Positions 14,801 through 47,300 of a stretch of DNA of 64,000 bases are shown piece after piece. The stretch spans positions 31,313,375-31,377,374 of the forward strand of contig CAIIXF020000005.1 in assembly GCA_903813345.2 (NCBI GenBank). The letters run 5' to 3'. Within the stretch, counting starts at the first letter, position 1; each line of letters begins with the position of its first letter. A program made the translations under genes and the position numbers. The notes under the pieces are model-generated. The model was not told the DNA's origin. It did no database searches and saw nothing but the letters and a program-made list of their open reading frames with translations. This DNA comes from Owenia fusiformis. Lineage: Eukaryota; Annelida; Polychaeta; Sabellida; Oweniidae.

Positions 14801-17800
14801 TGACAAGAAATTGAGACGCCACGCGCCCGCTGGGTATCCATGCAATCCATCTATATTAACAATGTAATCTGTTTTTGAGATTTTAGAAGTAAAATTTACA
14901 TTATGTTTAAATGTTATAGATTAACCAATTAAATTTTATGCCACCTTTGAATGTCTCTGACTATATTGAGAGGTTACAATATTAGGGATTTATTGGGACT
15001 CCAGGCTTTGGGAATAGCATCAGACTGAGTTTTATATACATGCATATTTATCCAGACTAGTATAAGTTTGGACTTGCCTTATCACGTCTTATAAAGCCGT
15101 CATGGCCTTTCTCCTCCAGCCTTAGTTCCATAATGCCATCTTCCGCCTCAAAGTGCATCACATTCAGATAACAATTTTCATCTGTCTCAAATGGGAAGAT
15201 CTCTGAAACAGAATTTCATCAGTTAAACCTGTCTCAGTGGAACACCTTTGGTACCTTTAGAAAAGTGTTCCATTTGGTGTTTCACTTAAAGAGGTTAATT
15301 TAAAATAAAGTCAGTTGGTCTTGGGAGACTGTTCCATTAGCAGAGGTGTTCCATTTCCCAAACTAAAAGATGGCCCTATGAATGACTTGTTTTTTCTCTT
15401 CCATAAACAGACTGCTTCTCCAAATTACAAGTATATTTAACCTTACACATATACGACATACACGAACATGGCCGTTATACATATATCTCACCAAGAAATT
15501 TAGACACATGTCCATAAATCAATCAGAAATGAAATGGGAAAGACAACATAAAAAGGATAACAGAGACAGGTTGATAGAATTAAATAGATAAAATACAGAG
15601 GTACATAGAATCATTGCTTGTATGTAGCGCACAATATCACTACAGTTTGGATCATACATAAATGAGTAGTGGATTCGCTGAAGTGAGGATTTCCCATGTT
15701 AAAAATAAGAGAATTTTCAAGAGGCAATACATCAGTGGATGTGAATATACAAAATGTAAAATATACAAATTTTAGGGGATAATTGCATCTGGACAATATT
15801 GGAAACTATGGGCTTTAAAAAAACCATGGTTTTGAAATGGTGCTAGAAAATCGACTGCTCAGTTATTTATGGTCCAAACTGTATACAAGCAATGAAATTT
15901 ACCTGAGGGTTCAATTATCATCTTATTTTTCAACGGACTCTCTTCATCTGCCTTTAACCTCTCTTCAGTTGCTTTGTTAGCCTCTGTACTGTTAGGGGTC
16001 CCATCACTGTTTTTAGGTACAAGGTGGTCAAACAAACACTTGTCTCGTTTAGTGCGATCATAGACCCCTGGTGTCCCTATATCCAATAAAGGAGAATAGT
16101 CACAATCAGTTACAGAGCTCTCGGTCTCACTTTCAGTTCTCTGCTTTTTTTTACGCTTCCGTTTTTTCTTCTTCGATTTAGTCTTATCCTGATCCTGCAT
16201 ATTGCTATCATTATCCTTTTTATTAGCTCCTCCCTTTGTATCTGGACTGCTTTCCATTGAATCACTGCTACTTTCTTTTGGCTCATTTGACTCAGCATTA
16301 TCAGGGGTATTTTCTCTCGAGTCGCTACTACTGTTTCCTGTGCCATTACAAGCTGTACTCTCATTAGAGAGTGAAACATTTATTTCATCATTGCTGGTTT
16401 CCTTGCTTTCATTTTCCACAGTTAAGGCAGCCTGTGGGCTTTTAACATCCTCAGACACAATAGTTTGTGTGCTTTTAACATCCTCTGGCACATTAGCTTC
16501 TGTGCTTTTAACATCCTCTGACACATTAGCTTCTGTGCTTTTAACATCCTCTGACACATCAGCTTCTGTACTTTTAACATCCTCTGACACATAAGCTTCT
16601 TTGCTTTTAACATCCTCCGACACATTAGCTTCTGTGCTTTTAACATCCTCTGACACATTAGCTTCTGTGCTTTTAACATCCTCTGACACATTAGCTTCTG
16701 TACTTTTAACATCCTCTGACACATTAGCTTCTGTGCTTTTAACATCCTCTGACACACTAGCTTCTGTGCTTTTAACATCCTCTGACACATTAGCCTGCAT
16801 TAGCTTTTGATTCTCCTCCAGAGTTTTAGGCTTCCTATTCTGATTGCCATCTTCCAAACTAGATTCTTTAGATTTGATGTTCTCACTGACATTTACATCC
16901 ATGCTTTTGTCTGACTGTTCTGTATATTTGGATTTACCCTCAACTGCTTGTGTTTTCATGCTACACTCTTTCTTTGATAAAGGAGTGCGTTTAGGGTCCC
17001 GATCCACCTTTTGGTATTCTTTCCATGCCTCTTTTTCCCCTTTTGTTTCAAGCGTCTCAATCAACTGGGGCAAGTCATAATAATTTATGTGAACTAAACA
17101 GTCATATAATTTTTCAGCAATAAAATCTTCCATTGGTTTCAATTCTTTTAGATGTCTATTTGGACGATATCCTATCATTCTCATGCTGCCGTTTGTCAGA
17201 AAGCATAGATTACAGTAGTTATATGAGCCAATGAAATTGACAGGATAATCCTCAAGTTTTTTATTTATGGCACTGTTTTTAAGCTCTCCATAATCCTTAT
17301 ATATTTGTTCGATGATGTGCAAGCTGCGGCTATCACTTATATGCAAATATAGTTCATGAATATCAGGTATGCCAAGCCAGTGTAAAGGCTGCTTTCCAAG
17401 AGCTTTCATATAGCAGAGGAATTGTCTGTATTTCCACAAATCTACATCCTGATACCAAGGTTCTGTAGGGTTTGCAAAAACATCAAATAAAGGATTGAGC
17501 GGGTCATTGAATCGGGGATCTCCAAATCCATAACTGGGTAAAAACACTGGACCTCTTGGATCACCATTAAATTTTTCATTGAGGTACAACTGAAGCTGCA
17601 TCTGACTTGCAATTGAGGATGTATCCTTCTTGAGTTCCTCAATGTCAACGAGTTGGAGGCTTGTACCCCTAACAGCTGCATTGCGCACTCGTTCAATATT
17701 CTCAGGAAGTGTCATTGGCATTGCTGCCATATGTAACTCAAGTTCCATTTTTTTCATTCGCCTCAGTCTTGCTTTCCTTGTAGCTTCCATTTCAGCTTTC

Positions 17801-20800
17801 CTACGAGCTTCACTGATAGCATCAGCCTTCGAGTCTGTATCTTTATCTTTAGTGGAGTTACCTTTGCTCTTGGCGTCCCAATATGTTTCATCGGATGAGT
17901 CTTGATCACTTGCACTCATCCAACGTCGTAAAATTCTCGCAACACTTCCGCCAAATTTTAAGTAGACGGGAATAAGTAAATATGTCTGAAAAATAACAAT
18001 TAGAAAATATAAGTGCATGAACAGTATACAAAAGCAGTGCTCGAGCCTTTATCCTTTTTAATTTATATCAAAGACCTTATTAATTTACATTCTAAACTAG
18101 GTTAATGGTCATAAAACTTCACTATTTATGAGATTTAACACTCTCAAGATTATGCATCGTTGTGCAAAGTTGACATTGATAAACTTATGCATTATGTACA
18201 AAAAGAAAGTTTAAAGCTTCAAAAAACAGAAGTTAAGGTGAGTGATCACCTTGCCTTTAACCAGGAAGTTTGCATGATAAACCCATGAAAATAATTCTTA
18301 AGTCATTCCTCAAGACCTTCCTTAAATCAAACAATTAACTACAACATGATAAAAACCAAGCTTCAAAATTATCATTGATACTTTTTCTATAAATATTGGT
18401 AAATTGGGTTCTATCCACTTACTTTCATATAAGAAGACTTCTTGTCCTTAGGCCCAAACAACCTTCTAAATACATCTCTCGTTTCACGGTTGTAAAATGG
18501 ATCTTTCGCTGCAATATGAATAAGAAAGTGTGGTACACTATTGCACAACCAAAGTTAAGTTAGTCTAATAAGAGTATATGACACCATAAAAAGATATGTT
18601 GTTATGACTCTCAAAGTTGAATTTTAGCGATAAAGACCCTTAGAATGCAATTCAGGCTGATCAAAGTTCAAAATGTATTATTAATTTATAACTAAAATGG
18701 GTGACATCAAAAAATGCATGCCACAAATGAAAAGGCCTGTTTACTTCAAATCTCATTGTGGAAAAACAACAACTGCTTTCAATAAACCCGCAATCAGTAG
18801 GCGAAAATTATTTGTTTCACCAATACTTTGCATTGCATCAGCAGGTTCTGCATACAAGAAGGGGTGCAATGGATGCGATCGCACCCCCCCCCCCCACAAC
18901 TGAAAGCTGCCTACGCCCCTGTACTGTCTGTACAACAACTGTAGTATGAAAGAAACCTAGAAATAACTGAGTAATAACAAAATTTCTCAGTAACTTTACA
19001 ACAATACAAGTGAGATCATGGCCAAAAATAGAAAATGCTTTTGTAACAAATCTGTCATTACTTGGTGCTATCTATCTAAGTATGTTACTGTTTAACACCC
19101 AACATTTTCAACTGAATAAGACAATGAATATATGAACGTAAATTTTGAGGTCTGTTTTAATTACAGTTCTACTATTTTGTACAACTTTGGGTTAAACGGA
19201 AGTCTAATACAATCTTAAGCAACTTACTCCACTATAGAACAAATAGCAGAAGAATTCCAAGATGTGAGTTACAGTATTTGGCCATGATATAAAAGATATA
19301 TATTAATATATAAGGTGATCAAAAAAGGAACTATACACTTTTGATTTCCTCTCATTCATTTATTTGTTGACCCGCTGAATAATTAATATTCCATTTATTA
19401 AAAAGCAAAAGTAAGCAGTGATACCCACATGCCAAGCTGATTAATAGTTGAAACACACTTTCCAATCTACAGAGTATATCCTGACTGCACAACTGTTCAA
19501 TCAATTGCATTAAAGTTAATAAACAAATCAAGCTTCACATAAAGTAACTAACAAGGCATTGACACGCAAAATGTCATATGTTACAGACGCAGAGCGCCAA
19601 CTGCCCTACACCAACCACAGAACACCACTGTCCACAAAATGTTGGAGACTATAACAATATGTCACCAAAGTGGTGAAATCATAACTATAACTCACCGTAT
19701 GATTTAGACTCCAGATATTGCAGCATATGACGTTTCTGAGCTACAGACACAATATCTATCACAATATTCTTGGCAGCATTAGCTTTTCCTGAAAATAAAA
19801 AATGACATATAACGCGTTCTAAGAAACAATAAACAGTTTTAAGTTTGTACTGATTAAAAGAAAATGTTGGCACTCAAGCAAAACAGCCATTTTATCTGAG
19901 GCTACAAGAACATCAACCATTAAAGTCAAAGTAAATGAACATTAATTTTGTACAGTACAGTGTTCTCTACCTATTTACAACTGACTTATTTCTACCAATT
20001 CAGGGTTCCTCCATAATTCAAAACAGTTATCCTGGATGTGAGGTTAAACTCTGCTACTGAACAGTAACGAAACCAGATCAGAAACCAAGACTGCATGGTT
20101 TCAGTTTCATATTCAGTGCGAGAGCATAAACATTGATTTACCTTGTTATACTCAACTATTGTGTGTCAGAGACAACAAAGGTTTTTATTATTAGAATATT
20201 AAGAAGGTTGTCGCAAAATTCCAACATTGCTAAAATCTCAGTCAGTTTGATAAAAAATATAGCTTTTTTTATTTCAATTTTTCCTAGAAATCCTTGGAGC
20301 TACATGTATAATTCACATATATTCTGTTAGATATATAACTGTTAAGATGTATGTAAGCTTAAAGTATTAAGATGAAAAAATGATCATTATTAAATTTTTA
20401 ATAGACTTTTTCATAGCATAGCTTCATGCATTACCTAGAACTTAAGTTAAAAGTTAACAGGAAAACTATTAAAACATAATACATATATCCACATACATTC
20501 AAATGTAAACAATTGGAGTATATCAGAAAACCTCACATTGAACAACTTGAAGACTTGTGCAGTAACTTTAAAAACATGAATGAACATCAAAAGACAATTT
20601 TTCTATTGACGAGTGAGGGGAACATATTAAAAGAATCTTTTGACATGATAAATTATCTAATGATTGGTAGAGACAGGATTCTTATATCAAAGTAATATTT
20701 TATATGTCATTTGAAGAATATAATCCTATTTTCTTTACTTTATTGCTATTTTTTACTGTTATTGAAAATTGTATGTTGGATGTATGTTTGGCCCTAAAAT

Positions 20801-23329: not shown

Positions 23330-23405
23330 AAAATTCAAAATCAAAAAGTCCGCCATTTTTTCACTTCAAAATTTGAATTGCGAGTTTTGGTCTTATTTCC
23401 GAACA
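23330..23405 (+). repeat. Dispersed repeat, also at 47165-47220 inverted
   Basis: AATTTGAATTGCGAGTTTTG and GTCTTATTTCC, preceded by GCCATTTTTTCAC, are seen here. The reverse complement of 47165-47220 reads nearly the same. Confidence 0.6.
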
Positions 23406-24287
23406 AAAAAATCAAAGCAAACAAGAAACGATCAGAATATAAAGTTCAAATCTTTGGGATTGCTGAGTTCATAGTCAGTTAAAATATAGAATCAATGTTG
23501 TCATCGATCAAGGTCAAGATCGAATATCGAGTTGGGACCCTAGGAGCCAATCCTCCTTGGGCTTATATCATTTCTTGTCTGTCTTGTATTTCTAATTATT
23601 TCAATTATACATCCTTAATTTGAGAAAAACTGAATAAGTTCATTTCTACTATATATGTGGTTACAACATTTATTATTAAAGAGAATTTACACATTTTGGG
23701 CAATTTGAGCGCAATTTAAAAATATCTTAGACTCATATAACTTCTTGTCATGTATATTTTCTGAATATTTCCATAATGCATTCTCTATCTGAGGAATTTA
23801 TGAAGAAGTACTTGGATATTGTGCAGATGCTCAAGTCAATGTGCTGATATCTATATACATATTGGCACATTGCACGTATCTAGTTACCAGTGTGTAACAT
23901 GTACTAAACCCCCCTTTGTACACTTGTTTACATTGTAAAATTCAATTTTCAATTTATGTTCGCTTTTTTCAAGGCTATTTGTTTATTGGTAGAATTTAAG
24001 TGGCCTTGTTATTGTAACGCACAATTCCAGGTCCTTTTGGATCAAAGGGTCTGCCAAATACTCAAAAACATAAAGATCACTCTGAAATGTTTTTGCTATA
24101 AATCGGGCAACAATGGTCTACACAACCTGTAATAAATAGGTATAAGGGACATAATTATCACAATACTAATGACATTGCAAGTGAATGAAATTAAAATAAC
24201 CCACTTCAATGTGCTCTGATCCGTGATTGGCTGCCTGGGGTCAATATCCGGGCAACTGATTGTATTTGCCAAGACTGATGACGGGAA

Positions 24288-24772
24288 GTTCATACTAGTG
24301 TTGTCGCGATTAATCGATACATCGCGATATACATCGCCAAAGCTGATTCTGGCGATGCATCGATGTCTGAAACAAAACATCGATGTTTTTAAAAAAATTT
24401 AATTTGCTAAAAATCACCCTTTCTTGTCTTATTTTGACGCAAATCGCTTACCTTTCTCATGTCTTATTTCATTTTCCAATGTTTTCTGATATTATTTCGC
24501 TTTTAAACTGTTTTAGCTAGTCGAAATGAACCATTAATCTAAAAAAAATACTTTACTTTCATTTCACCGTTACTAGAGGTTCCCGGATGTACCAGCGTAC
24601 TCTTATTAATCTGTTCTGTTCGGTATTTTAGTGCATTAGCGTTCGGTATTTCAGTGCACTTTTCTCGGACTTTTTCTCGATGTACATCGCGATGTGCATC
24701 GATGTTTACTACTGAAAATTGCCGATGCATCGATGTATGATTATGGCACATCGCGACAACACTAGTTCATAC
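24288..24772. mobile_element. hAT-like MITE, copy 1, with perfect 8-bp target duplication
   Basis: The element is 24296-24764 (469 bp). It begins TAGTGTTGTCGCGATTAATC and ends with the complement CGCGACAACACTA. The flanking 8 bp GTTCATAC (24288-24295 and 24765-24772) are identical. An 8-bp duplication with TAGTGTTG-type ends is the hAT hallmark. The interior is rich in ATCGATG/CATCGATGCATCG. One frame of about 70 codons on the minus strand (MCHNHTSMHRQFSVVN...) is also open in the second copy at 55248-55719. No transposase domain is recognisable. It lies between the divergent MYND and NRF1 genes. Confidence 0.95.
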
Positions 24773-24884
24773 TCAATAAAACATCATCATTTATTAATTC
24801 AGATGAAAAAACTTCCAAAAAACATACATTTCAACAATATCAGTCATATACATTGATCATTTTGAAATAAAAGAAGCACACTTA

Positions 24885-25015
24885 TCCCTAAAATTTGTAT
24901 ATTCTACAATTTGTATACTGTACTGTCATCCACTGATGTATGACCTTTTGAAAATTCTCTTATTTTTAACATGGGAAATCCTCACTTCAGCAAATCCCAT
25001 TCCATTTCAGGGGGG
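24885..25015 (+). repeat. Dispersed repeat, inverse copy of 15645-15790
   Basis: CATCCACTGATGTATG, AAAATTCTCTTATTTTTAAC and ATGGGAAATCCTCACTTCAG match the complement of 15645-15790. Confidence 0.8.
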
Positions 25016-27442: not shown

Positions 27443-30400
27443 ATGTCTCTTGGTGGTACATTGACAGTGAACACTTCTATACCCTCTGGTACAGTACAAG
27501 CAGGGGGCACCATCCAGCACGCAATGCATCATACTGCCTACAATGATGGGATGGACAGCGACCCAAGCTCTCCAGATAGTACATATGACGAGAGTGATCT
27601 GTTGCATTCCTCAATGCAGGATGATGTAGCTGCACAATTAGCTGCAGCAGGTTGGTACTCTTTTTCCTAATAAGTTCCAATTATTTTCTAATCCATATCA
27701 CATAGATCTATAGACACATTATTGCTTTTAACAAATGGATTTATCATATACACATGCGAAGTATGATTTCTGTTAGAGAAAGTAAAGAAGGTTATTGCTC
27801 AAGTTATGAACAGCCCTTACTTGTAATTTACAGTTAACACATACAAAAATTGTATTTTGTGAAAATAAAAGAGATAGATCCACAGGTGGTAAAATTCACC
27901 ACCCTTCCATCTACATCTAAAGTAAAAAAAAATCAGTCTCCATCATCATTGCTTGTACTTTAAGCCTAGCAGCATCTCCACCTCTTTCGCTGAATCTCCT
28001 TTTCCTCAGTACCATGAACAAAATCACTGGAGGAAGTAAAATTGGCTCAAAAAGGGGGTGCATTCACCCAGTGCACCCCACCCCTTGTGTAAGCTCATGC
28101 CTCTCACCTCCGAATGGAATCACTAATAAACATTACTTCTTAATATTCTAGGTCCTATAGGGGTAGCAGCTGCTGCATGTATTGCTACTGGGAAGAAGCG
28201 TAAACGCCCACATTCCTTTGAAACAAACCCTTCTATAAGGAAAAGACAACAGACAAGACTCATACGGTAAGTAGAAGCTTTTGAAGATATTTGTATAGTC
28301 CAGTTTTTTATTTTTAGTAGTTTCTATTAACTGTACTTATAAATCCAATAGAACTCTTTGTCTGACTACAGACTAATTTTAATTTATATACGCAAAACTG
28401 AAGTATCGAGGAATAACATAACAAACCTATTTTGTAATGAATTGAGATTCTTTCTTGGTCATTGCTAGGAAGTTGCGTAACACAATAGATGAGTATACAA
28501 CTAGGGTTGGACAACAAGCCATTGTGTTAACATGTACCCCTGGGAAACCATCACAGTCTAACACTCCATTCAAGGTGTTTGGGAGCCAGCCATTAGAATC
28601 TGTTGTAAGTAATAGCTGTTCCTCAGTATTCACTGTAACTCTTTGACCCAAATTTAGGGACAAAGTTAAGTTAATTTACATATTATGATTAATACACTTT
28701 TCAGATTGACATGCTCTTCCAATGCTCTTAATAAATATTAAAACAAATTAAGGTATTTGAGTTAAATGTTTGTGGACATAAATCAATATTAATCTTGTCC
28801 TTGAATAAGACTCAAATGTTTCATTTATTTAACCTCTCGACTACCGATAGTGACGAGATTTCTTGTCAACTCAGAAATGACCTTGAAACCCAGAGTGACG
28901 AGAAAATCTGTCACAAAAATTATTCACTAAGGTTGCTCTTATTTGAACAATTTTCATCCAATTTACACAAAAATTGTTTTGCAATGTGTGAAAATGAGCT
29001 ATGCCGTCTTATTTTACTAAGTTGAGCTTCTGAAGTTGTATAGGTAAAATAAAATGTCAAAAGGTGTCAAAAATGAAATATTCTCTGGTTTCAACCGATT
29101 TTAGAGCCTGGGATTCAAGAGGTTAAGTTAAATAAATAGAGAACAACTTCTGCATTGTATTAAGTATTTATCAAGTTTATTGTTTTGAACATTTTTGTCA
29201 ATAAAAATATTGCCATATAAATGTATAAAGAGTTTAAACCATAGAAAGCAAAAATAGGCACTTAATCATAAGTTTCATAGTAAAGTTACCCTGTTATTGC
29301 AGGTTAGAAATTCTCGTAATAACATCATGAATGAACTAGAAAGTGCATTAGCAGCTCAGGCCCCTCTTGCCAATCCAGATAATACTTCAATGCATGAACT
29401 TCCACCCCTCAACATAGATGGCCTCCCAACACCAGTTGATAAGATGACGCAGGTGAGCTACTATAATGTGCAATTTCATATGTATAAATTAACTGATGGG
29501 TTCGTACCAATCAGTATTAAAAGTTCTCTTATCATTAGCCTATGTCTTAATTTACTTTTCTTACATATTATCTTATCAACTTTTGATTCTAATACTATAG
29601 TGCAGTCAGAATGTGGGTTTCGGCGTGCGTTCAGAGGGATTTTATGGGACATAATTTTTCATGTTACTACTATGATTATACATATTTGTATGGATTATTA
29701 GATCTTAGTTTTTCAGCTTTTGGATTTTGTGGCCATTTTACCCCCCATGGGCTAAAATTTGGACCCCTACTATATAATTGGGCAAGAACTCAAAAAATAC
29801 TCAGTGGAATGTTTCCAAATTACTAAGTCATATTGGTATAGGCTAATTGAATATATGATAAAATTTTCATGTCACATGGTTAACTGGTTGCCATGGAAAT
29901 GGATAAAACATGCCCTTCGGGTGTCAATTTTCAGGCCAATTTTTCAGGACTGACAGAGTCATTTCATGCATATTTTGTCACCAATGTGTTAGGAAGGGTT
30001 AAAATGTCAATAGAAAACTTCTATAATATATAAGCAACAATTGTATGTAAAGATCAGTCCAGAAAACCTCAGATTTTGGCCTTGTATTGGTCCATGACTT
30101 ATACAGGGGTCTATTTCATAGACTCGAGCTCCCACATTGGATGGATGCTATAACTTTTGAAATAATGGAGATACAGGTCTCATTTTTTTCAGATCTTCAT
30201 AAATGGTTAGTTTTAAGTATTCTATTTTACTTTGGGAGCTGACATGTGATTGGTTGCCATGGTAACCAGGGTTTTAGGGAAATTCCGACCCCCACATTGG
30301 ATGGATGCTATAACTTTTGAAATAAGGGAGATACAGATCTCATTTCTTCAGATCTTCATAAATGGTTGGTTTTAAGTATTTTAATATACATTTGGAGCTG

Positions 30401-33400
30401 GTATATGATTGGTTGCCATGGTAACCAGGGTTTTAAGGAAATCCTGACCCCGACATTGGATGGATGTTATAACTTTTGAAATAAGGGAGATTCATGTCTC
30501 ATTTTTTCAGATTTTTGACAATGATTGATTTAAAGTATTGATTTAGACTTTGGGAGCTAAAATTTGATTGGTTACCATGGAAATCAGGGTTTTGTTGAAA
30601 TTCAGACCTCCACAATTGATGAACACTATAACTCTTAAATACAGCCAGATAAGATAATCTTTTCAGATGTAAGATAATAATAATATGTGTGTATTGTATT
30701 AGACTTTGGAAGCTAGGATTTATTTGTCTGCCATGGTAACCATGTTTAATTGTCATGGTAACTGCTGTTTTCATTTTCAGATTCACCTTTATTCTAGATA
30801 GGTCAATACATGACATAAAATACCAAATTGCTCAAAGTTACCATTTTATTCTTAATTTTTTATTTTTTTCTATTTTATATGATTTACATGCTCATGACTC
30901 AATAATACTAGAGATGCAAACATTGTTTGGCTCATAAAATATCAAATACTAGTAAACAATACATGTATGTCTGACAATATTGCCTTATTCCATACGACTA
31001 GTTCTTACAAAAGTTCTGACTCCTAATTTGTTCATTATGAACTCATCATTACTGTTTTAGCACAATTTCCTCTTAACATCAATTTCTGTTGGAATGAAGG
31101 ATTGTTTTGACCATTCTGGAGATGAGGATCCTCAGGAGATATAGTCCATTCATGTAGTATTGGACTTGGCAGAATGGGTTAAGACTGGTCCCTGTGGTTT
31201 CACTGTATATAAAATTGGCTGGGGTCCAAGGCTGAACCCTCAGATATCAATATGTTCCCATCCAATCTGTCAAATTTGAATGTGTTCCGATATCAACCAA
31301 AATAATGCCCAAAAGCCATACCAAATGCCCAAATATATGACCAGTGCCATACCAAATATCCAGATATGAAAACATGGCCATTCAAAATTTCTAATGCCTC
31401 GAGAAGAAGGCAGATCATTGAGGAAAACAACCAAAAACAACCTCACATTAAGGATATACTAGATCAATGCCATACATGTGCAACAAGTGAGGGGCAACAT
31501 ATTTTTCACAACCAATCCAAATCCGACCATTGCTATACCTCTCAAGTCATAATTTTGAGAGCATTCTCATACCAGATCCTTAAATTTGGGTCCATTGCCA
31601 TATCAAATGTCAAAAGTACCCCACCTGAGCTGAGGATCCCCTCAAGGTTTATATACAGTGAACTCCTGGGAAACGGGGGGTAATGTTTCCACTTCCAAAT
31701 ATAAGTTTTATCTTCCATCCTCTTCAAATGTTATAATGAGCAATCATTACAAGATGGAAGAGTTCATCATTTAATTCATTGCATTATATTAGCTGCTATG
31801 AAAGCAGTCAAGGACCAATCTTGAAAGATGGGAAGAGTTGAAATGGGTAGTACTGTTCTGTTTTGGAGAATCTCTTATGTGAAACAGCTCATATTGTTAT
31901 CTATTGATGTAAGTTACAAATATATTTTTGTTATTCTGCTGTACTTTCACTGGTGAACAATTCAACTTTGGATTTTATTGTGTCAGGAATTTCTATATTG
32001 ATTCCTATTATGAAGAAAATAACCTTAAGAACCTCAACTGATGTGAACTCTGTCCCATTAGATGTCAGAAGCTCAACCCAACCCCTGTAGCTGCAAACCT
32101 AGGACCAAGTCCTGTGTGAAGCTATATTAGCCTTCAATGCGTTTACTGGATCAGATTCCTCCAGTGCAGAAAAACAACAAAACAGCAGAAATAGAAAAAT
32201 AACTGCCACTAATAGATTACGAGATGAGCTGTTTCCCATGAGATACAGAAAAAAATAGAACAGTGCTGCCCTCACTTATGAAGGTGTTGACATTTTCTTT
32301 CACATTTGAAGAGGGTAAATTATCAAACCTATGTATGGACACATTCCCACTAGCCTAAACCCAGCTCTACCATTATGCCCAACACTGCATGAATGAACTG
32401 TGAATTCCCTGACGAATCTTTAACACAAGAATGGTCAAAAGAATCCTTCTTTCCAATATAAATTGTTGATATTTTTAATTAAGAGGCAATTGTGGAAGAT
32501 GAAAACGATAATGATGAGTAAAAACAAGTTGGGAGTCTGAATATGTGTGAGAACTAGTGGAATGGAATGAGGCTATACTGTCAGACATACAGGATAAATT
32601 GCTGAAATAAAGAGCAAAATGATAATTTTGAGCATTTTGGTATAACATGTTGTGAATTGACCATTCTCAAATGAAGGTAAGACTGAAATAAAAAATTAGG
32701 GGTACCATGACGACGAAACATGGTTACCATGGCAATCAAGTAAATGCTAAGCTACAAAGTCTAATTCAATACACAAATCTAATTAATTTTTAAGATCTGA
32801 AATGATGATATCTGTATCTGCTTGAATTCAAACATTAAAGCATTTATCAATAGGTCCAAATTTCAATAAAACTCTAGTTACCATGGTAACCAATCAAATT
32901 TCAGCCCCCAAAGTCTAATTTAATATTTATAATCAATCATTGTCTAAGATCTGAAATAATGAGACATGTATCTCCCTTATTTCAAAAGTTATAGCATCCA
33001 TCCAATGTGGGGGTCGGAATTTCCCTAAAACCCTGGTTACCATGGCAACCAATCACATGTCAGCTCCCAAAGTAAAATAGAATACTTAAAACTAACCATT
33101 TATGAAGATCTGAAAAAATGAGACCTGTATCTCCATTATTTCAAAAGTTATAGCATCCATCCAATGTGGGAGCTCGAGTCTATGAAATAGACCCCTGTAT
33201 AAGTCATGGACCAATACAAGGCCAAAATCTGAGGTTTTTTGGACTGATCTTTACATACAATTGTTGCTTATATATTATAGAAGTTTTCTATTGACATTTT
33301 AACCCTTCCTAACACATTGGTGACAAAATATGCATGAAATGACTCTGTCAGTCCTGAAAAATTGGCCTGAAAATTGACACCCGAAGGGCATGTTTTATCC

Positions 33401-36256
33401 ATTTCCATGGCAACCAGTTAACCATGTGACATGAAAATTTTATCATATATTCAATTAGCCTATACCAATATAACTTAATAATTTGGAAACATTCCACTGA
33501 GTACTTTTTGAGTTCTTGCCCAATTATAAAGTAGGGGTCCAAATTTTAGCCCATGGGGGGTAAAATGGCCACAAAATCCAAAAGCTGAAAAACTAAGATC
33601 TAATAATCCATACAAATATGTATAATCATAGTAGTAACATGAAAAATTATGTCCCATAAAATCCCTCTGAACGCACGCCGAAACCCACATTCTGACTGCA
33701 CTACTAATGCTATATACGCATAACAATGTTGATGTGGAGAAGTCAGTTGGCTCCATAGCTCTGGGGTAAAGCAATCGTCTGGAAAGCGAGGGGTCATCAG
33801 TGCAATCCCCACAACGGTGGACTGACTTTTTCATATCAGCCCTTAGCACAGAATTTCATTCTGTGTTTCCATTAACCAAAAGAACTCAACTTTTCATATG
33901 ACACTGTTATACATGTTTCATCCACAGTTACAGCGATGGATTTAGGAATTCTACAAAATTTCTGTTAATGACTCTCTTTATATGTCCATGTAGGCTCAAC
34001 TGAGGGCATTTATACCAGAGATGTTGAAGTATTCCACTGGTAGAAGCAAACCAGGCTGGGGAAAGCCAGAATGCAGACCCATTTGGTGGCCTGAAGATGT
34101 CCCATGGGCAAATGTTCGTAGCGATGTAAGAACAGAGGAAATGAAAAAACGGGTGAGAATATGTAATTGTTTAGTGAAAAATGTAACTGGATCTCATATC
34201 AAGAATGTGAATTCCCTATCAGTACAATTACAGCCTTAAAGTCATTTTACAAAGTAAATTAGACACTAGAAATTACAATGGATGAACTCGTGTATGGGCA
34301 GTTATATTCTATATATTCAATCCCAAAAATACAGAGTATCTATCGTTATCCTGTGCTATATGCACAATTGCCCTTTGTATCTGGAAATCCAGAACAACTT
34401 GGCAGTCGTTAGATACCTCGGAATACTTTGCAAATTCCTGCTATCAAAGTTAAGATTTAAAAAATAATAATCAATGCCCTTTTAAATCTATTTTCTGAGC
34501 ATCATCACCTTTACAAATTTATATGCAAAATGTGTGCAAAGAAATTTTCTTTTTAAAAGCGTCTCTTGATGATATTGATGATATTTATCTTGAATCCCTA
34601 ACATTTGAATATTTTTTTAAATTGTATTCTGTTGGACAAAATACACTAATGCAGAGTGTTAATCATCACTTACCTTTTTGTTCCAGGTGTCATGGACGCA
34701 TGCTTTGAGGACCATTGTCAAGAACTGTTACAAGCATCATGGAAGAGATGACCTTCTGCCAGAATTTGAGGACTCTGGTCACCAGGGAGCAGGTGTACAC
34801 TCATTCTCTGGGGGCCCTCATACTATGGTAGGTTTAAGTCACATAGATATATAAGTTTCAAATGGAAAACTGAAGTGAGAAGTGTTAAAACGTCAAAGTT
34901 AAAACTTAAGTTTAACTCCTTGGATTCTAATGAAATATCAGCTTTTTTACTGTACACAGTGAATTTTGAATACTATATCACACTTGCAAAACGCTTAAAT
35001 TAGTAAAACAATATTTATGATTTTGAAAACCTTTTGGTTTCATCATTTGAGAAAACATATCTATTTCAGGTTCAGACTATTAGTAACCCTGATGGTACAG
35101 TGTCCATCATCCAGATAGACACCAGTCAGATCCCAGCTGATGCTGCCAACACTGCTGTTGTCACACTCAATGAGGGAGGGGGCAGTCATATTGTACATAC
35201 TGTTGGGCCCAACCAATATTTAGTAAGTCCTATAGTTAGTTAGTTAGCCACTATATATTTTCTACGTATCATGTATTCTTAATATGCTGGTATCGGTAAA
35301 ACAACCGGTGAAAAATTCCTGCTGCTAATGAAACCTTTGAGATCAGTAAAACATTTTTTTGGGGCTTTTTTAATACAGTGCAAACTTTTCATAAGTCCTA
35401 GTTAATGAGGTGAATACATGTGCATCTTGAGTGCATATGAGTTAACATATATATTACTTTGTGTGTTCAGATTCCAACAACAACGACACATGGGGAAGCC
35501 AACCAGGCAGTGCAGACTCTGGCAGAGGTGGCTACAACCCAACAAGATCTCACTCAAATGGGGCACCCAATCAGTGTCCAGATTAACCAGGATGAGCAGG
35601 GTAACACTGTTGCACATATACAACAAGATGGACAGATCATCATTGGTGATGCCAACACTATGGCCGGTGGAGGGGATAACCAAGGTAAGGCAATATTGTC
35701 AACTCATATGTAGCTTTAGAACTATCTGGTCCTGGTCATACTTTTACACAATGGACAGTTGGTAAGGTAGAGATGATGGAAGGGGTGTAATATTGACTAA
35801 ATTATTGTGGTCTGTTCTAATGTTTCTGCAAATTTTTTCATTGATTTGAACATCTGGCCCGACATCAGCCAATTAGTGTGCAGTTTCCACTGTATGATGA
35901 AATTATATGAACGGTATGTAGTAGCTCATCTGGTCAGTGTATGTATACATTTTAACACATACATTTTACTTTCAGGGAGTAACCTAGTAACTATCCCCGT
36001 GTCAATGTACCAAGGTGTAGTCACAAACCTACAACAGATCACATCCTCAGTGTCTGAGAACTCTCAACAGTTAGATAATAGTCAAGTAGAACAACAGCCA
36101 CTAGAAGAGAATACTATGGAGGTGAATGAACAGAGTCAGTCTATAGAGACATCCACTATAGATAACACTGAGATTATGGAGGAAAGTAAAGTTGAGATTG
36201 TTCCTGATGCTACTCATGCTGTAGAGGTTATGACAGTTGATACATCATCACAATAG
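27443..36256 (+). CDS. NRF1: Nuclear respiratory factor 1, complete, 518 aa
   Basis: Coding exons: 27443-27650, 28152-28266, 28469-28604, 29303-29452, 33994-34152, 34687-34827, 35070-35222, 35471-35684 and 35976-36256. They total 1557 nt with matching phases. The 5' UTR part of the first listed exon begins at 27435. The protein has the acidic DSDPSSPDSTYDES segment, AAAGPIGVAAAACIATG, the nuclear signal KKRKRP (84-89), and the NRF1/EWG/P3A2 DNA-binding and dimer region (about 84-275). That region shows NPSIRKRQQTRLIRKLR, DEYTTRVGQQAIVL, AQLRAFIPEMLKYSTGR, KPIWWPED-like RPIWWPEDVPWANVRSDVRT and WTHALRTIVKNCYKHHGR. The C-terminal half is Q/T-rich activation sequence (VQTISNPDGTVSIIQI, IPVSMYQGVVTNL). 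NRF1 binds GCGC palindromes as a homodimer and drives genes for mitochondrial respiration and growth. Human NRF1 is 503 aa, so the length fits. The 4.5-kb intron 29453-33993 holds a large transposon. Confidence 0.97.
29589..33712. mobile_element. 4.1-kb long-TIR element (Mutator-like) in an NRF1 intron
   Basis: The element is 29598-33703. The left arm (29598 to about 30765) and right arm (about 32695 to 33703) are inverted copies, starting TAGTGCAGTCAGAATGTGGG and ending with its complement. The outer 0.5 kb is nearly identical between arms. The flanks CTAATACTA (29589-29597) and CTAATGCTA (33704-33712) match at 8 of 9 positions, a 9-bp target duplication typical of Mutator-like elements. The inner arms are made of units of about 160 bp (GGATGGATGCTATAACTTTT ... 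TTGGTTGCCATGGTAACCAG). The left arm has one unit more than the right. The central 1.9 kb has no recognisable transposase, so it is non-autonomous or decayed. Confidence 0.88.
30138..30765. repeat. Tandem units of about 160 bp in the left TIR arm
   Basis: GGATGGATGCTATAACTTTT recurs at about 30138, 30299 and 30459 with a diverged unit from about 30618. Each unit includes TTGGTTGCCATGGTAACCAG or a close variant. The right arm carries inverted relatives in 32695-33170. Confidence 0.85.
33742..33870 (+). mobile_element. tRNA-derived SINE head / tRNA pseudogene
   Basis: TAGCTCTGGGGTA is a near-consensus Pol III A box and GTGCAATCC a near-consensus B box. Between them CTGGAAA is a tRNA-like anticodon loop (GGA, as in tRNA-Ser), with TCGT/GCGA able to pair around it. 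GTCAGT at 33742 and ACTGAC at 33821-33826 can pair, and TTTTT follows, a Pol III stop. The T-arm pairing is poor, so a working tRNA is unlikely. A small hairpin CACAGAAT/ATTCTGTG follows at about 33848-33866. It lies 30 bp outside the Mutator-like element. Confidence 0.65.
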
Positions 36257-41400: not shown

Positions 41401-44400
41401 CAGTGTTCATGGTGTTGTTTTAAAATTGTGTATATGTCGTTTGAAACCCTCTCTAACGCAATTTTATTATAAACTAACACCTTAGGGTTAAAATTTTGCC
41501 CGAGGAATTAACTCATTTTCATCAATAAATATTAACCCATCAGGTTTTCTACTAGTAAACTAACGTTTAAACCTCACTCAATTGTCGTTATCACTTACTA
41601 CTAAACCCAAGTGAGATATGGCTCTTGCATCAGCACGAGCTAATAAGTAAAATGTTGACAAGCAGACCAATAGTTCTGCAGTCGAGCAAATTATATTTAC
41701 CTTTGCATAAAATGCTGCAAGAATGTTTCCAAAGTTTCCTGTGGGTATACATACATCTACCCTGTCCCCCAGGCTGATAATGCCCTGTTCAACCATGTCC
41801 AGATACCCAACAGCATGGTAGACCACCTGGGGAAGCAACCTACCCCAGTTAATACTGTTTGCTGCACTGGAATCAAGAAGCATGTTCAGTTTATACTTTT
41901 TGTGCATTGAAATGCAAAAAGCACCATAAAGGGACATGTTTGGTTTATACTGTTTGCTGCACTGTAATCAAGAAAAGCATCTTAAAGGGACATGTTGGGC
42001 TTTTACAGCTTGCAGCACTGGATTACATGAAGCATGTTCAGTTTATACACTTTTTGTGCACTGAAATACAAAAAGCACCTAAAAGGGACATGTTTGATTT
42101 ATACTGTTTGGCAGTGTTTGCTGCACTGAAACCAAGAAAAGCATCTTAAAGGGACATGTTGGGTTTATACAGCTTGCAGCACTGGACTACATGAAACATG
42201 GTCAGTTTGTACACTTTTTTGCACTGAAATACAAAAAGCAATGGACATGTTTGATTTATACTGTTTGCTGCACTACACTCAAGAAGCATCTTAAAGGGGT
42301 GTGTTCAGTTGATACACTTTTAGTGCACTGAAATGCAAAAAGCACCTAAAAGGGACATGTTTGGTTTATACTGTTTGCTGCACTGGAATACAAGAGCCAC
42401 CTTAAAGGGACATTCCCACTTAATACTGACTGAATACACCCTGGAATTACCATAAAGGGACAGTTCACATTTTACAAGAAGCATATTAAAGTGCACATCA
42501 CATAAAAGCACATCAGTCTATACTGTGCAGCACTGGAAAACAAGAAGCATCTTAAAGGGACATACAGTTTATACTTATTGTAGTAGTGGAATACAAGAAA
42601 TATCTTAAATAGCAACATGCCAAATTCATGGAGGATTTGTTAAATGATCAATTACACAATAAAATAATTTCCATAAAATGTTACCTAATTTGACAATTGT
42701 GTTTTTCATTAAGCTCTTCCCTGAAGCTGTCATTATTGAAGATAGACTTGATCGTTGACTGGCAGAAGTCAAAGTCGCTATCAACACCTACAACATGCAG
42801 ATTGTCACCCTGCATTGATGTCATCTGCTGTTGCTGGATTGAACTGATACCTTGTTGGGGATAGAGGACCATCACATCAATATTCGTAACATCTGAAATA
42901 TTATACATCATATTTAAAATGGAATCGTTTAGATCTTTTCAATCTGGTTTACATGTACAAGGTAATCCAAAGTAAAGCTGAAATGTCAATTACTTCCTTT
43001 CAGATGACACAGCTGCGATATAGATAAACAGAGTGCACAAGTCTGATTGCATGATACCTGCTAATAGGAGAGTAATGGTTGCTATGATACCGTAACAGTG
43101 AGGAAATTCAAAATGTTCAGAAAATCGAATGAATTTCAGAAGGTAATGAAACTTGTTGATAAAATAAACTTGTTGAAAAAATGAAAGGTATCACTGAATC
43201 TTTTATTATGTGTGAGTCCCATCTGCTAGACCTATGCCATATTCATTTACCTTTAAGCTTTCTGAAGCCATCTAGGACTGCTCCCCCTGTATCACCAGAT
43301 GTCGCCACAAGGATCAGGAACCTAGAAGATAGACTGGAATATCAGTGAAAAAAGTTTTATTATTTTTCAATAAAAAATGTCAAAATCTATAAATCTTGAA
43401 ATAGAAATATTAAGATCAATGATGGGTATGTATGTGAATTAGCTTTCACTTTCACAAGACCATTCATATTGGAAAGAAAATTGTGAGAAACATGATGCAT
43501 GTGTACAAGTTCATTATTATACTTCAATTGTATCATTATTCCAGAGAATCTAGCTCTAAATCCAGCATCAAATAAGCTCAAATTTTGAGGTTAAACTTTA
43601 CCTTGCTGATGTACTTTTACTAGCAGAACAGCTGTAAACAGCATGTTGGAATAGCTGAGGCATCAGTTGTAGTGCAAGATCTTTAAATGAAGCTGTTGGT
43701 CCATGAAACAACTCCTGTATATACTGTTTCCCTTGTAAATGAACCACAGGAGCTACCTTAAGACAATTAAAGCTGGAATATGCTTTCTTGATATATTCCT
43801 TTAAGTCTTGTTGAGACACACTACGGAAATCTAAAATCCATTGCTCTAATATTCTTACTGCTTTATCTTGGAATGTCAAACCAATTAGACGATTCCATTG
43901 TTTTAGAGATAATTCTGGGACTGTTCTGTCTGGGACAAAGAGTCCTCCATCAGGAGCCAAGCCTTTCAAAACAACATCATTGAAAGTGATGAATTGATTT
44001 GTATGATTATCAAGCTTTTCATTCCTTGTTGATATGTATGTATCAGCCTTAGATGCTTCAAGTGCCTTGACAATCTTCTTTGCAATATCATCTTGCGATT
44101 CAAACTGTTCACATATGACTCGGATATCATAACCCGCTTCATAAAATTGCTGCCGATACTGTAAGATATCTCTCATGTGAACTCCTGCCTCCTGGCCTAC
44201 AATTCTTGAAACTTTCATTTTTTCTAATCTTTGTACAATATCTTCATTCTGGACATCGATGAAAACAAATGTACCATAATTGCGTAAATGTTCCATAGCT
44301 GGTGCGTACATTGGATTGGAGCCTGTTAATGACACAACAGAATCAATTGGGGTGAATTCAAGTAGTGCTTTGCCTTCTTCCAATATGAAGTTGTCGCCTC

Positions 44401-45522
44401 CAACTTCATGAAGCTGAAATGCACCATAGTAAGAAAATAAGGGTCATAAGCAGCACTTTTTACTTTATATAATCGTGTATCAACTAAGTTCTGATGACTT
44501 CATTTGAAGTCAATGGTATATGTACCTATAACTAAAAATGTTACCTTTTGAGACACAGGTATTCCCCAGTGTGGTTCAAGGACATGGTCATCAATGTCTA
44601 TCACAGGCTTATTAAGTAAAGATCCAACTATACGTCCTATTGTTGTTTTACCAGAACCTGGGCTCCCCATCAAGAATATTGAATCCAACTGATATGAAAG
44701 TATAAAGAGGGGTTTCCACATTATATTGTACATTTACACTGTACATTTGACACAGTCCAACACATTTAATATTCTCCCTTATAATACCTTGTACAGTTAT
44801 AATAGCCACACTCATCACAAATATATTCAAAACATTGAATCACAAACATTGAAACACAAACATAAACTTTATGAAGAAAATAATGTTAAAACGTATCACA
44901 TCTGACCTACATCTGACCATACATGTATACTATGTATACACTGTCAAATTCTTGATAATCCTTCACAAATGCACTCTGTAATGTAAATACATGTAATACT
45001 GATAAATATATATATTAGATACACATGTAAGTTTACAGTAGTTCTCATCCTTTATCATTGGGTTTCGCTGCTGCCGCAGAATTCACAGACCCTAAGGCAG
45101 TACAAACCTCCGCATAGGCGCATTAATGCATCTCTTAGCCTTTATTTATATATCTGAGATTTGTCACTGGCCCAAAAACTTTGATAGTCAATAGGGGCAG
45201 GAAGTCCCTAACCCCACACCTCTATTCCCCAATGAATAATTAGTGCCTGTGGAATGAAGTGAAACAGACAATCCACCCTTCCAAAAAAGATGAATAGATC
45301 TACTATAGAATAATAGCACTTAAAACATATATTCACCTGTCGGGCTGTATGTTGAGAAGATGCTGGTCGTGATCTTTTTTCATGACGGTGATTTTCAAGA
45401 TTTTGATTTTTCAAACAAAATGTATTATGGAGGTAAGAACTAGGCGCATTGAAATGACAGTCACTTCTCAACAGTCTCAGAATAACTCCACTTGTTTTCA
45501 ACATCTTGATTGCACTTTGCAA
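38494..45522 (-). CDS. THNSL1: Threonine synthase-like 1, complete, 746 aa
   Basis: Exons in transcript order: 45522-45337, 44688-44545, 44413-43602, 43321-43251, 42892-42685, 41866-41701, 40689-40438, 40174-40084 and 38804-38494. They total 2241 nt with matching phases. The N-terminus is basic, with no acidic residue in the first 20 (MQSAIKMLKTSGVILRLLRS), suggesting a mitochondrial signal. A shikimate-kinase-like domain follows, with P-loop GSPGSGKT (70-77) and DIDDHVLE. The threonine-synthase-like PLP domain has GLAPDGGLFVP, HGPTASFKDLALQ with the PLP lysine near 354, VATSGDTGGAVLDGF, NSINWGRLLPQ and IPTGNFGNILAAFYAK. The C-terminal part has GYMLDPHTAVA and ISSTAHFAKF. Human THNSL1 is 743 aa. 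Animals lack threonine synthesis, so the true reaction is unclear; relatives act as phospho-lyases. Introns hold a GCTCACA-ended repeat and a tandem array. Confidence 0.97.
38992..39931. mobile_element. GCTCACACAG-ended element with (GGAC)n tract, in a THNSL1 intron
   Basis: The left end GCTCACACAG (38992-39001) and right end CTGTGTGAGC (39922-39931) are exact inverted repeats. A GGAC/GGACG-rich tract (39837-39900) sits next to the right end. Inside are nuclear-receptor-like half sites, including TGACCTTTGACCT at 39115-39127 and AGGTCA phrases near 39232-39262. There is no coding sequence. The layout mirrors the elements at 48408-49557 and 60514-62819 in inverse orientation. Confidence 0.7.
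40702..40830 (+). repeat. Dispersed repeat, second copy (see 19565-19680)
   Basis: GACAAGGCAATAACATGCAA, AATGTCACC, TACAGACGCCAACTGCC and ACATTTGGAGACTGTAACAA match 19565-19680 in the same orientation. It lies directly upstream, in transcript sense, of THNSL1 exon 40689-40438. Confidence 0.75.
41867..42600. repeat. Tandem array copying a THNSL1 intron-exon junction
   Basis: The phrase TACTGTTTGCTGCACTGGAA plus TCAAGAAGCA spans the real acceptor of exon 41866-41701. It recurs, diverged, near 41950, 42010, 42110, 42180, 42260, 42370 and 42530, joined by AAAGGGACATGTTTGGTTTA-like segments. On the minus strand several copies keep TTCCAG|TGCAGC-like acceptor sequence. Confidence 0.85.
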
Positions 45523-45670: not shown

Positions 45671-47300
45671 AATTACAAAAAGTATCCACATTTTGACGTT
45701 TATATGTCATTTATACGTGACTAGTAACTATGTAAGTTATGTTTTATACAATATTCAAACCTATTTCAAGTTTGAGAGGCATTTATTGAAGATTTATAGG
45801 GACATGTACTTTGAAAAATTATTTTTCAATCTCTGAATTTTTTTAGTTCAGATCACAGACACGGGAACAAGAGTTCATCCCCCTCCCACTCACTATGTAT
45901 TAGATAGAAAAAAGACTCATATCTCGGAAATCTAGGCCTCTACTCAAATTGCTCATATCTCCGTCACTGAGTTGTGTCATGCATTATCTTTTGTCCCAAT
46001 GCAAGGTTACAGGGCTGTCAACTTGGGACCACCTAATATGAGTGACTTCAAAATGTTGGACACCTAAGTCCAAATCTGAACACTTTTGTCCAAATTTTGA
46101 ACACCTTTGGCCAACTTTTAAACACCTTTGGCCAAAGTTTGAGCACCTTTGCCAAACTTTGAACACCTCAAATTTTTCGCGATCGCTAAGCTCGCGATAT
46201 TGTCAACGGGAGGGGGGGGGGGGGGGGGGGGGGTAGGTACGAAAAATTTTCAATGAACATGCGTGACACATACGGAATTCGCGTGACAAATCCGAACAAA
46301 TTGCGTTCGGTTTTTTCCGACGTTCGTATTTTTACCGTATCGTAAACATATTTCGAAAAAATTTCTACAGAAATATTTTTGCGTGACAATTGCCAGGTAA
46401 AATGCGTATTTTGCGTGACATTTTCTGTCACGCAAAAAAAACTGGCGTGACTTCAAATTCTTCAGCAAATGCGTGACAAATACGCAAATTGCGGGACAGT
46501 TGACAGGCCTGAGGTTAAAACCTTAAATCGTATTTATGGTAACTCACCATTTCTTAAATCAGAATAATTGTGCGAAGAACATTGGAAATGGGACGAAAAA
46601 ATGATCACTTTTGAAATCAAGACATTTCGATGTCCATAACTGCAACCTTTATAATATCCACGACGAGTGTCTCATTATTTTAAGAATTGTTTTTTATAAT
46701 TACGATTACAAATCTCAATTCTAGTATTCAGATATATCTGTGGTGATGCTATGAACTTATTATAGTAGTCTCGGTATATTTCAAATAGTATATCGTATAC
46801 TATTAGCTTTTTTTGATTTCTAAAAAAGAGGTAATTTCACTAGTAGTAGGTAATTTCATCTGGAATACTGTGAACTCCATTTGAAAAAAGCTGGCCGGCG
46901 TGTCATTTTATTGAATATTTTAAAAATCGCCAGATAAATCAATCATTAATTTAAATGGGACCGGCTTGGCTCCTTGATGAGATATTGCATGATTTCGTCA
47001 GGATTTCGTCTAAAATTAAATATAATGGCTCCAAGAAAAATGGTGATATTCGAAAACTGGACGAAATGTTGTTAATGTCGGATATAAGTAACTGGCTGTA
47101 AATTCTAAGTTTGCGATCCAGAAGATGTGAACTAATACATTGATCACTTCATGTGTGTTTTGGAATTTTTGGTGAGGATATAAGACCAAAACTCGCAATT
47201 CAAATTGTGATGTGGAAAAATGGCTCAAATCTCAAGGTCTGTCAACCTTGGGAGTGGGAACACCTAAAACGAGTGACTTACAATTGTTAAAAAGGAAGAG
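45671..47300. other. Intergenic repeats between the divergent THNSL1 and KIN genes
   Basis: No exon is recognised. It holds a phrase (GGCTGTCAACTTGGGACCAC, then ATGAGTGACTT) at 46012-46050 that recurs at 47230-47282. It also has AACACCTTTGGCCAAACTTT-like short repeats at 46080-46170, a G tract (46209-46232), and several GCGTGACA phrases from 46262 to 46490. Confidence 0.55.
46209..46232. repeat. Poly-G tract
   Basis: A run of more than 20 G, preceded by CGGGAGG. Its exact length is unreliable in sequencing. Such runs can form four-stranded DNA. Confidence 0.85.

Follow-up and report, generated by a model that had tools for sequence, protein, structure and literature searches.

A foldback-type DNA transposon with unequal arms in an NRF1 intron of Owenia fusiformis, with signs of out-of-register exchange between its arms

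The NRF1 locus and its neighbours

The DNA analysed here, referred to below as the window, is a stretch of 64,000 nucleotides from the annelid Owenia fusiformis, and all coordinates are positions within it. Two exons of NRF1 on the forward strand, 29303–29452 (150 nt) and 33994–34152 (159 nt), both in phase 0 and with splice sites placed by eye, bound an intron of 4541 nt (29453–33993). The upstream exon matches Pfam family PF10491 over 29312–29452 (E = 4.8e-9), and the downstream exon matches the same family (E = 4.8e-26) as well as solved NRF1 (E = 3.3e-30); both exon lengths are divisible by three. About 90% of the intron (4106 of 4541 nt) is taken up by a single 4106-bp element, 29598–33703, that lies entirely within it. 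The first-pass annotation had described a transposon with long terminal inverted repeats (TIRs) and unequal arms inside NRF1, and the inverted matches, the tandem units and the flanking NRF1 exons bear this description out.

The neighbouring genes were identified by scanning 9 of the 22 frames of at least 110 aa in the window. A reading frame resembling S-adenosylhomocysteine hydrolase (2277–2621) lies on one side of NRF1. On the other side is a frame (43598–44443), taken to be THNSL1-like, in which shikimate-kinase and threonine-synthase N-terminal domains are recognised. In human, AHCYL2 lies near NRF1, and the hydrolase-like frame beside the Owenia gene may represent old synteny. Close to the right end of the element, the segment 33745–33830 resembles by eye the head of a tRNA-derived SINE; ARAGORN found no tRNA in it and its best match elsewhere in the window has E = 0.10. 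Rfam, at gathering scores, and ARAGORN returned nothing in the window.

Ends of the element and target-site duplication

The element is flanked by CTAATACTA on the left (29589–29597) and CTAATGCTA on the right (33704–33712), both read on the forward strand, which agree at eight of nine positions. Among duplication lengths of 2–12 bp at these ends, only 3 bp (CTA, exact) and 9 bp give a good match; flanks of 8 bp agree at one position of eight and flanks of 7 bp at one of seven. Random pairs of 9-mers from the window reach 8/9 with a probability of 3.3e-4, although the real chance is higher because the length was not fixed beforehand, and the boundaries and duplication length are those of a single copy. 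The 16-base tip TAGTGCAGTCAGAATG occurs exactly twice in the window, in identical form at the two ends of the element, where 0.61 occurrences in all are expected at up to three mismatches. One further match to the tip, with three mismatches, is found at 19477–19492 on the reverse strand.

Comparison of 29301–34000 with the window by blastn aligns 29598–30586 with 33703–32721 in inverted orientation, with 92% identity over 992 columns. Continuation of the arms past 29598 and 33703 had been set in advance as grounds for rejecting these ends. The inverted matches stop there: blastn detected no inverted homology outside the two positions, and the 600 bp flanking the element on each side have nothing notable in common (best E = 0.15). 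Arms, ends and flanks thus agree with the earlier proposal of an element with inverted arms and a probable 9-bp target-site duplication (TSD) carrying one change.

Both ends of the element begin with TAGTG. We scanned the window for TAGTG...CACTA pairs (48 starts and 48 ends, at spacings of 80–6000 bp), accepting duplications of 7–8 bp if exact or of 9–10 bp with at most one mismatch. Three elements were returned, namely the 4106-bp element and two copies of a 469–472-bp element. The latter lie in opposite orientation at 24296–24764 and 55248–55719, are 96.6% identical and have 15-bp inverted ends, TAGTGTTGTCGCGAT, with exact 8-bp duplications, GTTCATAC and TGTCCATC. The end and unit patterns of the 4106-bp element gave no exact match in viral contigs or prokaryote genome contigs, where an animal transposon is not expected, so this search is uninformative on rarity.

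Architecture of the arms

The arms as first delimited, 29598–30765 and 32695–33703, are 1168 and 1009 bp long and differ by 159 bp. This is also the period of the tandem units within them, of which the Tandem Repeats Finder (TRF) counts 3.2 on the left and 2.0 on the right. The earlier observation that the arms differ by one internal unit of about 160 bp is thereby made precise, the left arm having one unit more. The left-arm units occupy 30131–30760 on the forward strand and comprise L1 (30131–30290), L2 (30291–30449), L3 (30450–30608) and a degenerate L4 (30609–30760). On the reverse strand, the outer right arm (32969–33703) includes unit R1, and the inner right arm (32161–32968) includes the 3′ part of R2 and a degenerate R3.

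An arm length of about 1.0–1.17 kb, as initially given, describes the better-conserved part of the arms; diverged homology goes on inward as far as 31942–31953 on the left and 32161–32174 on the right. The chain of inverted homology, at about 82% and then 77% identity, reaches almost to the centre and leaves an unpaired loop of 207–231 bp, placed at 31954–32160 (207 bp) or 31943–32173 (231 bp) by two alignment analyses. The innermost left arm (31679–31953, forward strand) is homologous to 32348–32161, with 135 of 176 aligned bases equal and a local score of 103.4, compared with 56.9 for the best of 500 dinucleotide shuffles. Judged from these alignments, and indels aside, the element is almost entirely an old palindrome. 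It has two structural features of foldback elements, in that its TIRs make up most of its length and contain tandem repeats that vary in number.

A 489-bp stretch (31190–31678, forward strand) is present in the left arm only. On the right, the two innermost blocks of homology abut (32349/32348); on the left, this stretch separates them. It carries an imperfect 29-bp inverted repeat of its own near its ends (31199–31227 and 31634–31662) and is probably a nested insertion; alternatively, the right arm has suffered a deletion.

An identity step within a tandem unit

The identity of the two arms is not uniform. Aligned with 33703–32969 over 736 columns, the outer left arm (29598–30333, 736 bp) shows five mismatches and a single indel, so that the outer ~735 bp are 99.3% identical, and identity then drops abruptly. 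At the step, 30333 on the left and 32969 on the right, 5 mismatches in 735 aligned columns outside give way to 65 in 353 inside (30493–30857 compared with 32968–32606; Fisher P = 5e-28). Farther in, still within the inner diverged left arm (30493–31189, forward strand), there are 38 mismatches in 209 columns (30959–31178).

The drop falls inside a 159-bp unit, at the point where the left arm has its extra copy. Unit R2 of the right arm is for the most part a hybrid of L2 and L3: it is identical to L2 at its start, and its remainder is likely the counterpart of L3. At the 33 sites that distinguish L2 from L3, R2 has the L2 base at 3/3 before the break, and the 30 sites after it divide into 20 that follow L3, seven that follow L2 and three that follow neither. 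The step and the hybrid unit, as aligned, seem to record one exchange between the arms that was one unit out of register. The proposal that tandem units change in number within a TIR is upheld, and the change is apparently tied to this exchange. Unit pairs are 99% (L1–R1), 87% (L3–R2) and 71% (L4–R3) identical, and these values suggest that the units are older than the exchange.

A single exchange producing a hybrid is the simplest account, and the 7/30 sites that follow L2 after the break count against it. In addition, four of the five mismatches in the outer arms fall within a span of 57 bp (P = 0.005, post hoc), and the homogenised tract may record more than a single event. The TSD differs at one base of nine and the outer arms at 5/735 (~0.7%; P = 0.07), which is mildly unexpected for an insertion as young as the identity of the arms would suggest. 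The TSD mismatch and the clustering hint that there was not just a single tract, or that the arms were homogenised when the element was already in place. As a single locus, the element illustrates clearly how long TIRs may change, since identity drops abruptly at the very base where the hybrid unit switches.

X-box sites in the units

The tandem units carry sites related to GTTRCCATGGYAAC, an X-box motif of a published RFX site type (PMC3414849). With up to two mismatches allowed, the motif has 12 matches in the window, 10 of them in the element, where 0.48 are expected in the window and none of 100 shuffles reached 12; the sites in the element are copies of one unit and hence not independent. 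Four are exact, at 30253–30266 (L1), 30412–30425 (L2), 32877–32890 (R2) and 33036–33049 (R1). Six more sites in the arms have one or two mismatches, and that of L3 has two. Conservation among six units is highest in a 14-column window that the X-box overlaps, although column permutation does not make this significant (P = 0.157). In the literature searched, the two papers listed for X-box, RFX and transposable elements together look unrelated.

Transposase and superfamily

Stop-to-stop frames of 40 aa or longer over 29500–33800, 43 in number, were all compared with Pfam. None matched a transposase, and the only frame to reach a curated cut-off was that of the NRF1 exon. Weak matches of frames in the element all fall below cut-off, for example a retroviral SH3-like match at 31634–31774 (E = 0.036; 14.4 bits against a cut-off of 27). 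The absence of a MULE transposase from this copy is expected if the element is non-autonomous and is compatible with mobilisation by a MULE.

Mutator-like elements are described as having TIRs of more than 100 bp and TSDs of 8–10 or 8–11 bp (PMC5225508, PMC6446971), often 9 bp. The long, nearly identical outer arms agree with the first feature, which is not exclusive to MULEs, and the flanks, with 8/9 at one locus only, would fit the second. A Mutator-like affiliation is the most likely one, if unproven, and we favour it somewhat, since no other duplication length fits as well as 9 bp. The suggestion of a Mutator-like element made in the first-pass annotation therefore stands in part: long TIRs and a probable 9-bp duplication fit published MULEs, but no transposase was found among the frames searched, the assignment is that of one copy, and the TIRs are longer than the 14–500 bp (up to 613 bp in the table) that the MULE survey gives for its elements (PMC6446971).

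Comparison with known foldback and Mutator-like elements

Two Drosophila elements offer the closest parallels. Tetris, a foldback element of D. virilis, was assigned to Mutator by its authors, and in their account it is, like the element here, non-autonomous, with tandem units of variable number inside its TIRs and no transposase found (PMC4079207). Its units are ~220 bp long, three or four in number depending on the allele, and its TSDs are 8–10 bp (PMC4079207). The unit in Owenia is 159 bp, and the likeness described here is one of structure. In Owenia, unit number differs between the arms within a single copy, and this difference falls at an identity step. Galileo belongs to the P superfamily (PMC3573991, PMC3688188). 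Its TIRs are reported to reach ~1.25 kb, with ~210-bp units that are unequal in number between the arms of one copy (PMC3573991), and its authors describe repeated transposase-binding sites in the units and propose exchange templated by the other arm (PMC3573991, PMC3688188). Unlike Galileo, which has a P-superfamily transposase, the Owenia element has a best TSD of 9 bp and no transposase was found in it. Its structure is very similar to those of Galileo and Tetris. Copies whose two arms hold different numbers of units are already known from Galileo, and changes in unit number from Tetris.

Mutator-like elements of other animals share some of these features. The Tm1 Mutator/Foldback family of Meloidogyne is described as having composite TIRs with tandem repeats, mostly 9-bp TSDs and non-autonomous copies, but its units are 13–15 bp, its elements are shorter (1080 and 2593 bp) and a Phantom-like transposase is known (PMC3169594). 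Among Muta1 and other MULEs of Aedes, 12 of 14 families are reported to have TIRs of more than 100 bp, 10 of these 12 have subterminal tandem repeats and TSDs are 8–9 bp; the units differ in being 9–15 bp, and the two elements described have TIRs of 145 and 151 bp (PMC5225508).

Origin of the element and alternative explanations

We consider it probable, at roughly 0.75, that the element is a non-autonomous foldback-type cut-and-paste DNA transposon whose tips were later homogenised by an out-of-register exchange between the arms. A transposase supplied in trans would recognise the TAGTGCAGTC ends and perhaps also sites repeated along the tandem units, as has been shown for Galileo, and the element would have been cut out and inserted with a 9-bp stagger, here in an NRF1 intron. 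The arms would be an old inverted duplication, diverged by ~18%. A later strand exchange, by gene conversion or by break repair templated by the other arm, would then have overwritten ~735 bp at the outer end of one arm. By ending within a tandem unit while paired one unit off, it would have made the tips alike and at the same time the arms unequal by 159 bp.

Long palindromes are a known class of assembly and sequencing artefacts, but in a fold-back artefact the arms should be nearly identical and the flank not duplicated; inner arms that differ by ~18%, with many indels and a one-sided 489-bp stretch, make this explanation scarcely credible. Host repair could instead have produced an inverted segmental duplication or a long palindrome, with no transposon involved; such an origin would agree with the near-complete palindrome and the lack of recognised coding sequence. 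It would leave unexplained the matching tips with an 8/9 duplication outside them, and the TAGTG...CACTA scan returned only two other elements, both evidently transposon-like, so that we regard it as very unlikely. A foldback element of another superfamily, hAT-like or P/Galileo-like, that has converged on long TIRs deserves more weight, and we treat it as a possible but less probable reading. The hAT end consensus is YARNG, and TAGTG at both ends fits it, which is weak evidence; the tips of the 469–472-bp element, which has exact 8-bp TSDs, share 10 of their first 15 bases with those of the 4106-bp element. That smaller element may be a hAT-type MITE, or a MULE-type element that, as Muta1 does, makes duplications of 8 or 9 bp. 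The authors of Galileo consider TIR length unreliable for classification (PMC3573991), which also leaves room for another superfamily. The TSD of Galileo is 7 bp. Against both affiliations, the flanks match at only 1/8 and 1/7 at the respective lengths compared with 8/9 at 9 bp, and by our reading an 8-bp duplication needs an insertion and a substitution where 9 bp needs one substitution.

The inequality of the arms could itself be the product of two events, with the tips converted in register and one unit gained or lost independently, an account that is compatible with either superfamily and that would resemble a single exchange. Unit number is reported to change alone in Tetris (PMC4079207) and in Galileo F (PMC3573991), and the 7/30 misfitting sites in R2 are awkward for a simple hybrid. 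Against it, the homogenised tract ends at 30333, where the unit count also breaks, and we regard the two-event account as possible but less probable. Less probable again is a version in which out-of-register conversion between the halves of a single palindrome homogenised the arms in situ, once the element was in NRF1, and in which spread of the element would seed RFX sites in introns through the X-boxes of the units. The identity of the arms would in that case give the age of the conversion rather than that of the insertion, and self-templated repair would keep the tips of foldback elements alike even when they do not transpose; TIR identity would be a poor clock for such elements if exchange occurs in situ.

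Predicted RNA hairpin in the NRF1 intron

The arms had been expected to pair as a hairpin in NRF1 pre-mRNA, and structure prediction agrees. In the predicted fold of the intron, 731 of the 736 bases of the outer left arm pair with the right arm, and the minimum energy is −2362 kcal/mol (both values without a shuffled control). The longest uninterrupted helix comprises 359 pairs, including a G-U pair because it runs across the G/A difference at 30062. Intronic double-stranded RNA is credible on this prediction, provided that the intron persists long enough, and the hairpin would be a candidate substrate for RNA editing by ADAR.

A proposed contribution to circular RNA or exon skipping fares poorly, both arms being within one intron. 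Pairing of repeats in the same intron is described as favouring canonical splicing, whereas pairing across flanking introns helps circles to form (PMC11263572), and circular RNA is for this reason not favoured here. The same source gives one human case in which an antisense Alu causes exon skipping that is partly reversed by within-intron pairing (PMC11263572).

Other features of the window

A frame at 32103–32258, in the loop and inner right arm, encodes a short stretch, LCEAILAFNAFTGSDSSSA, that we take to resemble an XPG-like motif (HAFTGCD...) of invertebrate mobile elements. The frame has no Pfam match at E up to 10. A degenerate pattern of the motif retrieved seven stretches of viral contigs, in open frames of 10–70 residues that are similar to the Owenia frame only around the motif (15.4–16.9 bits), and three XPG-like motif strings had no match in the literature searched. 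We dropped the idea of an XPG-like coding relic. Two further inverted repeat pairs are present in the window, 15671–15790 with 24872–24997 (87% identical over 127 aligned columns) and 23352–23457 with 47118–47224 (81% over 108).
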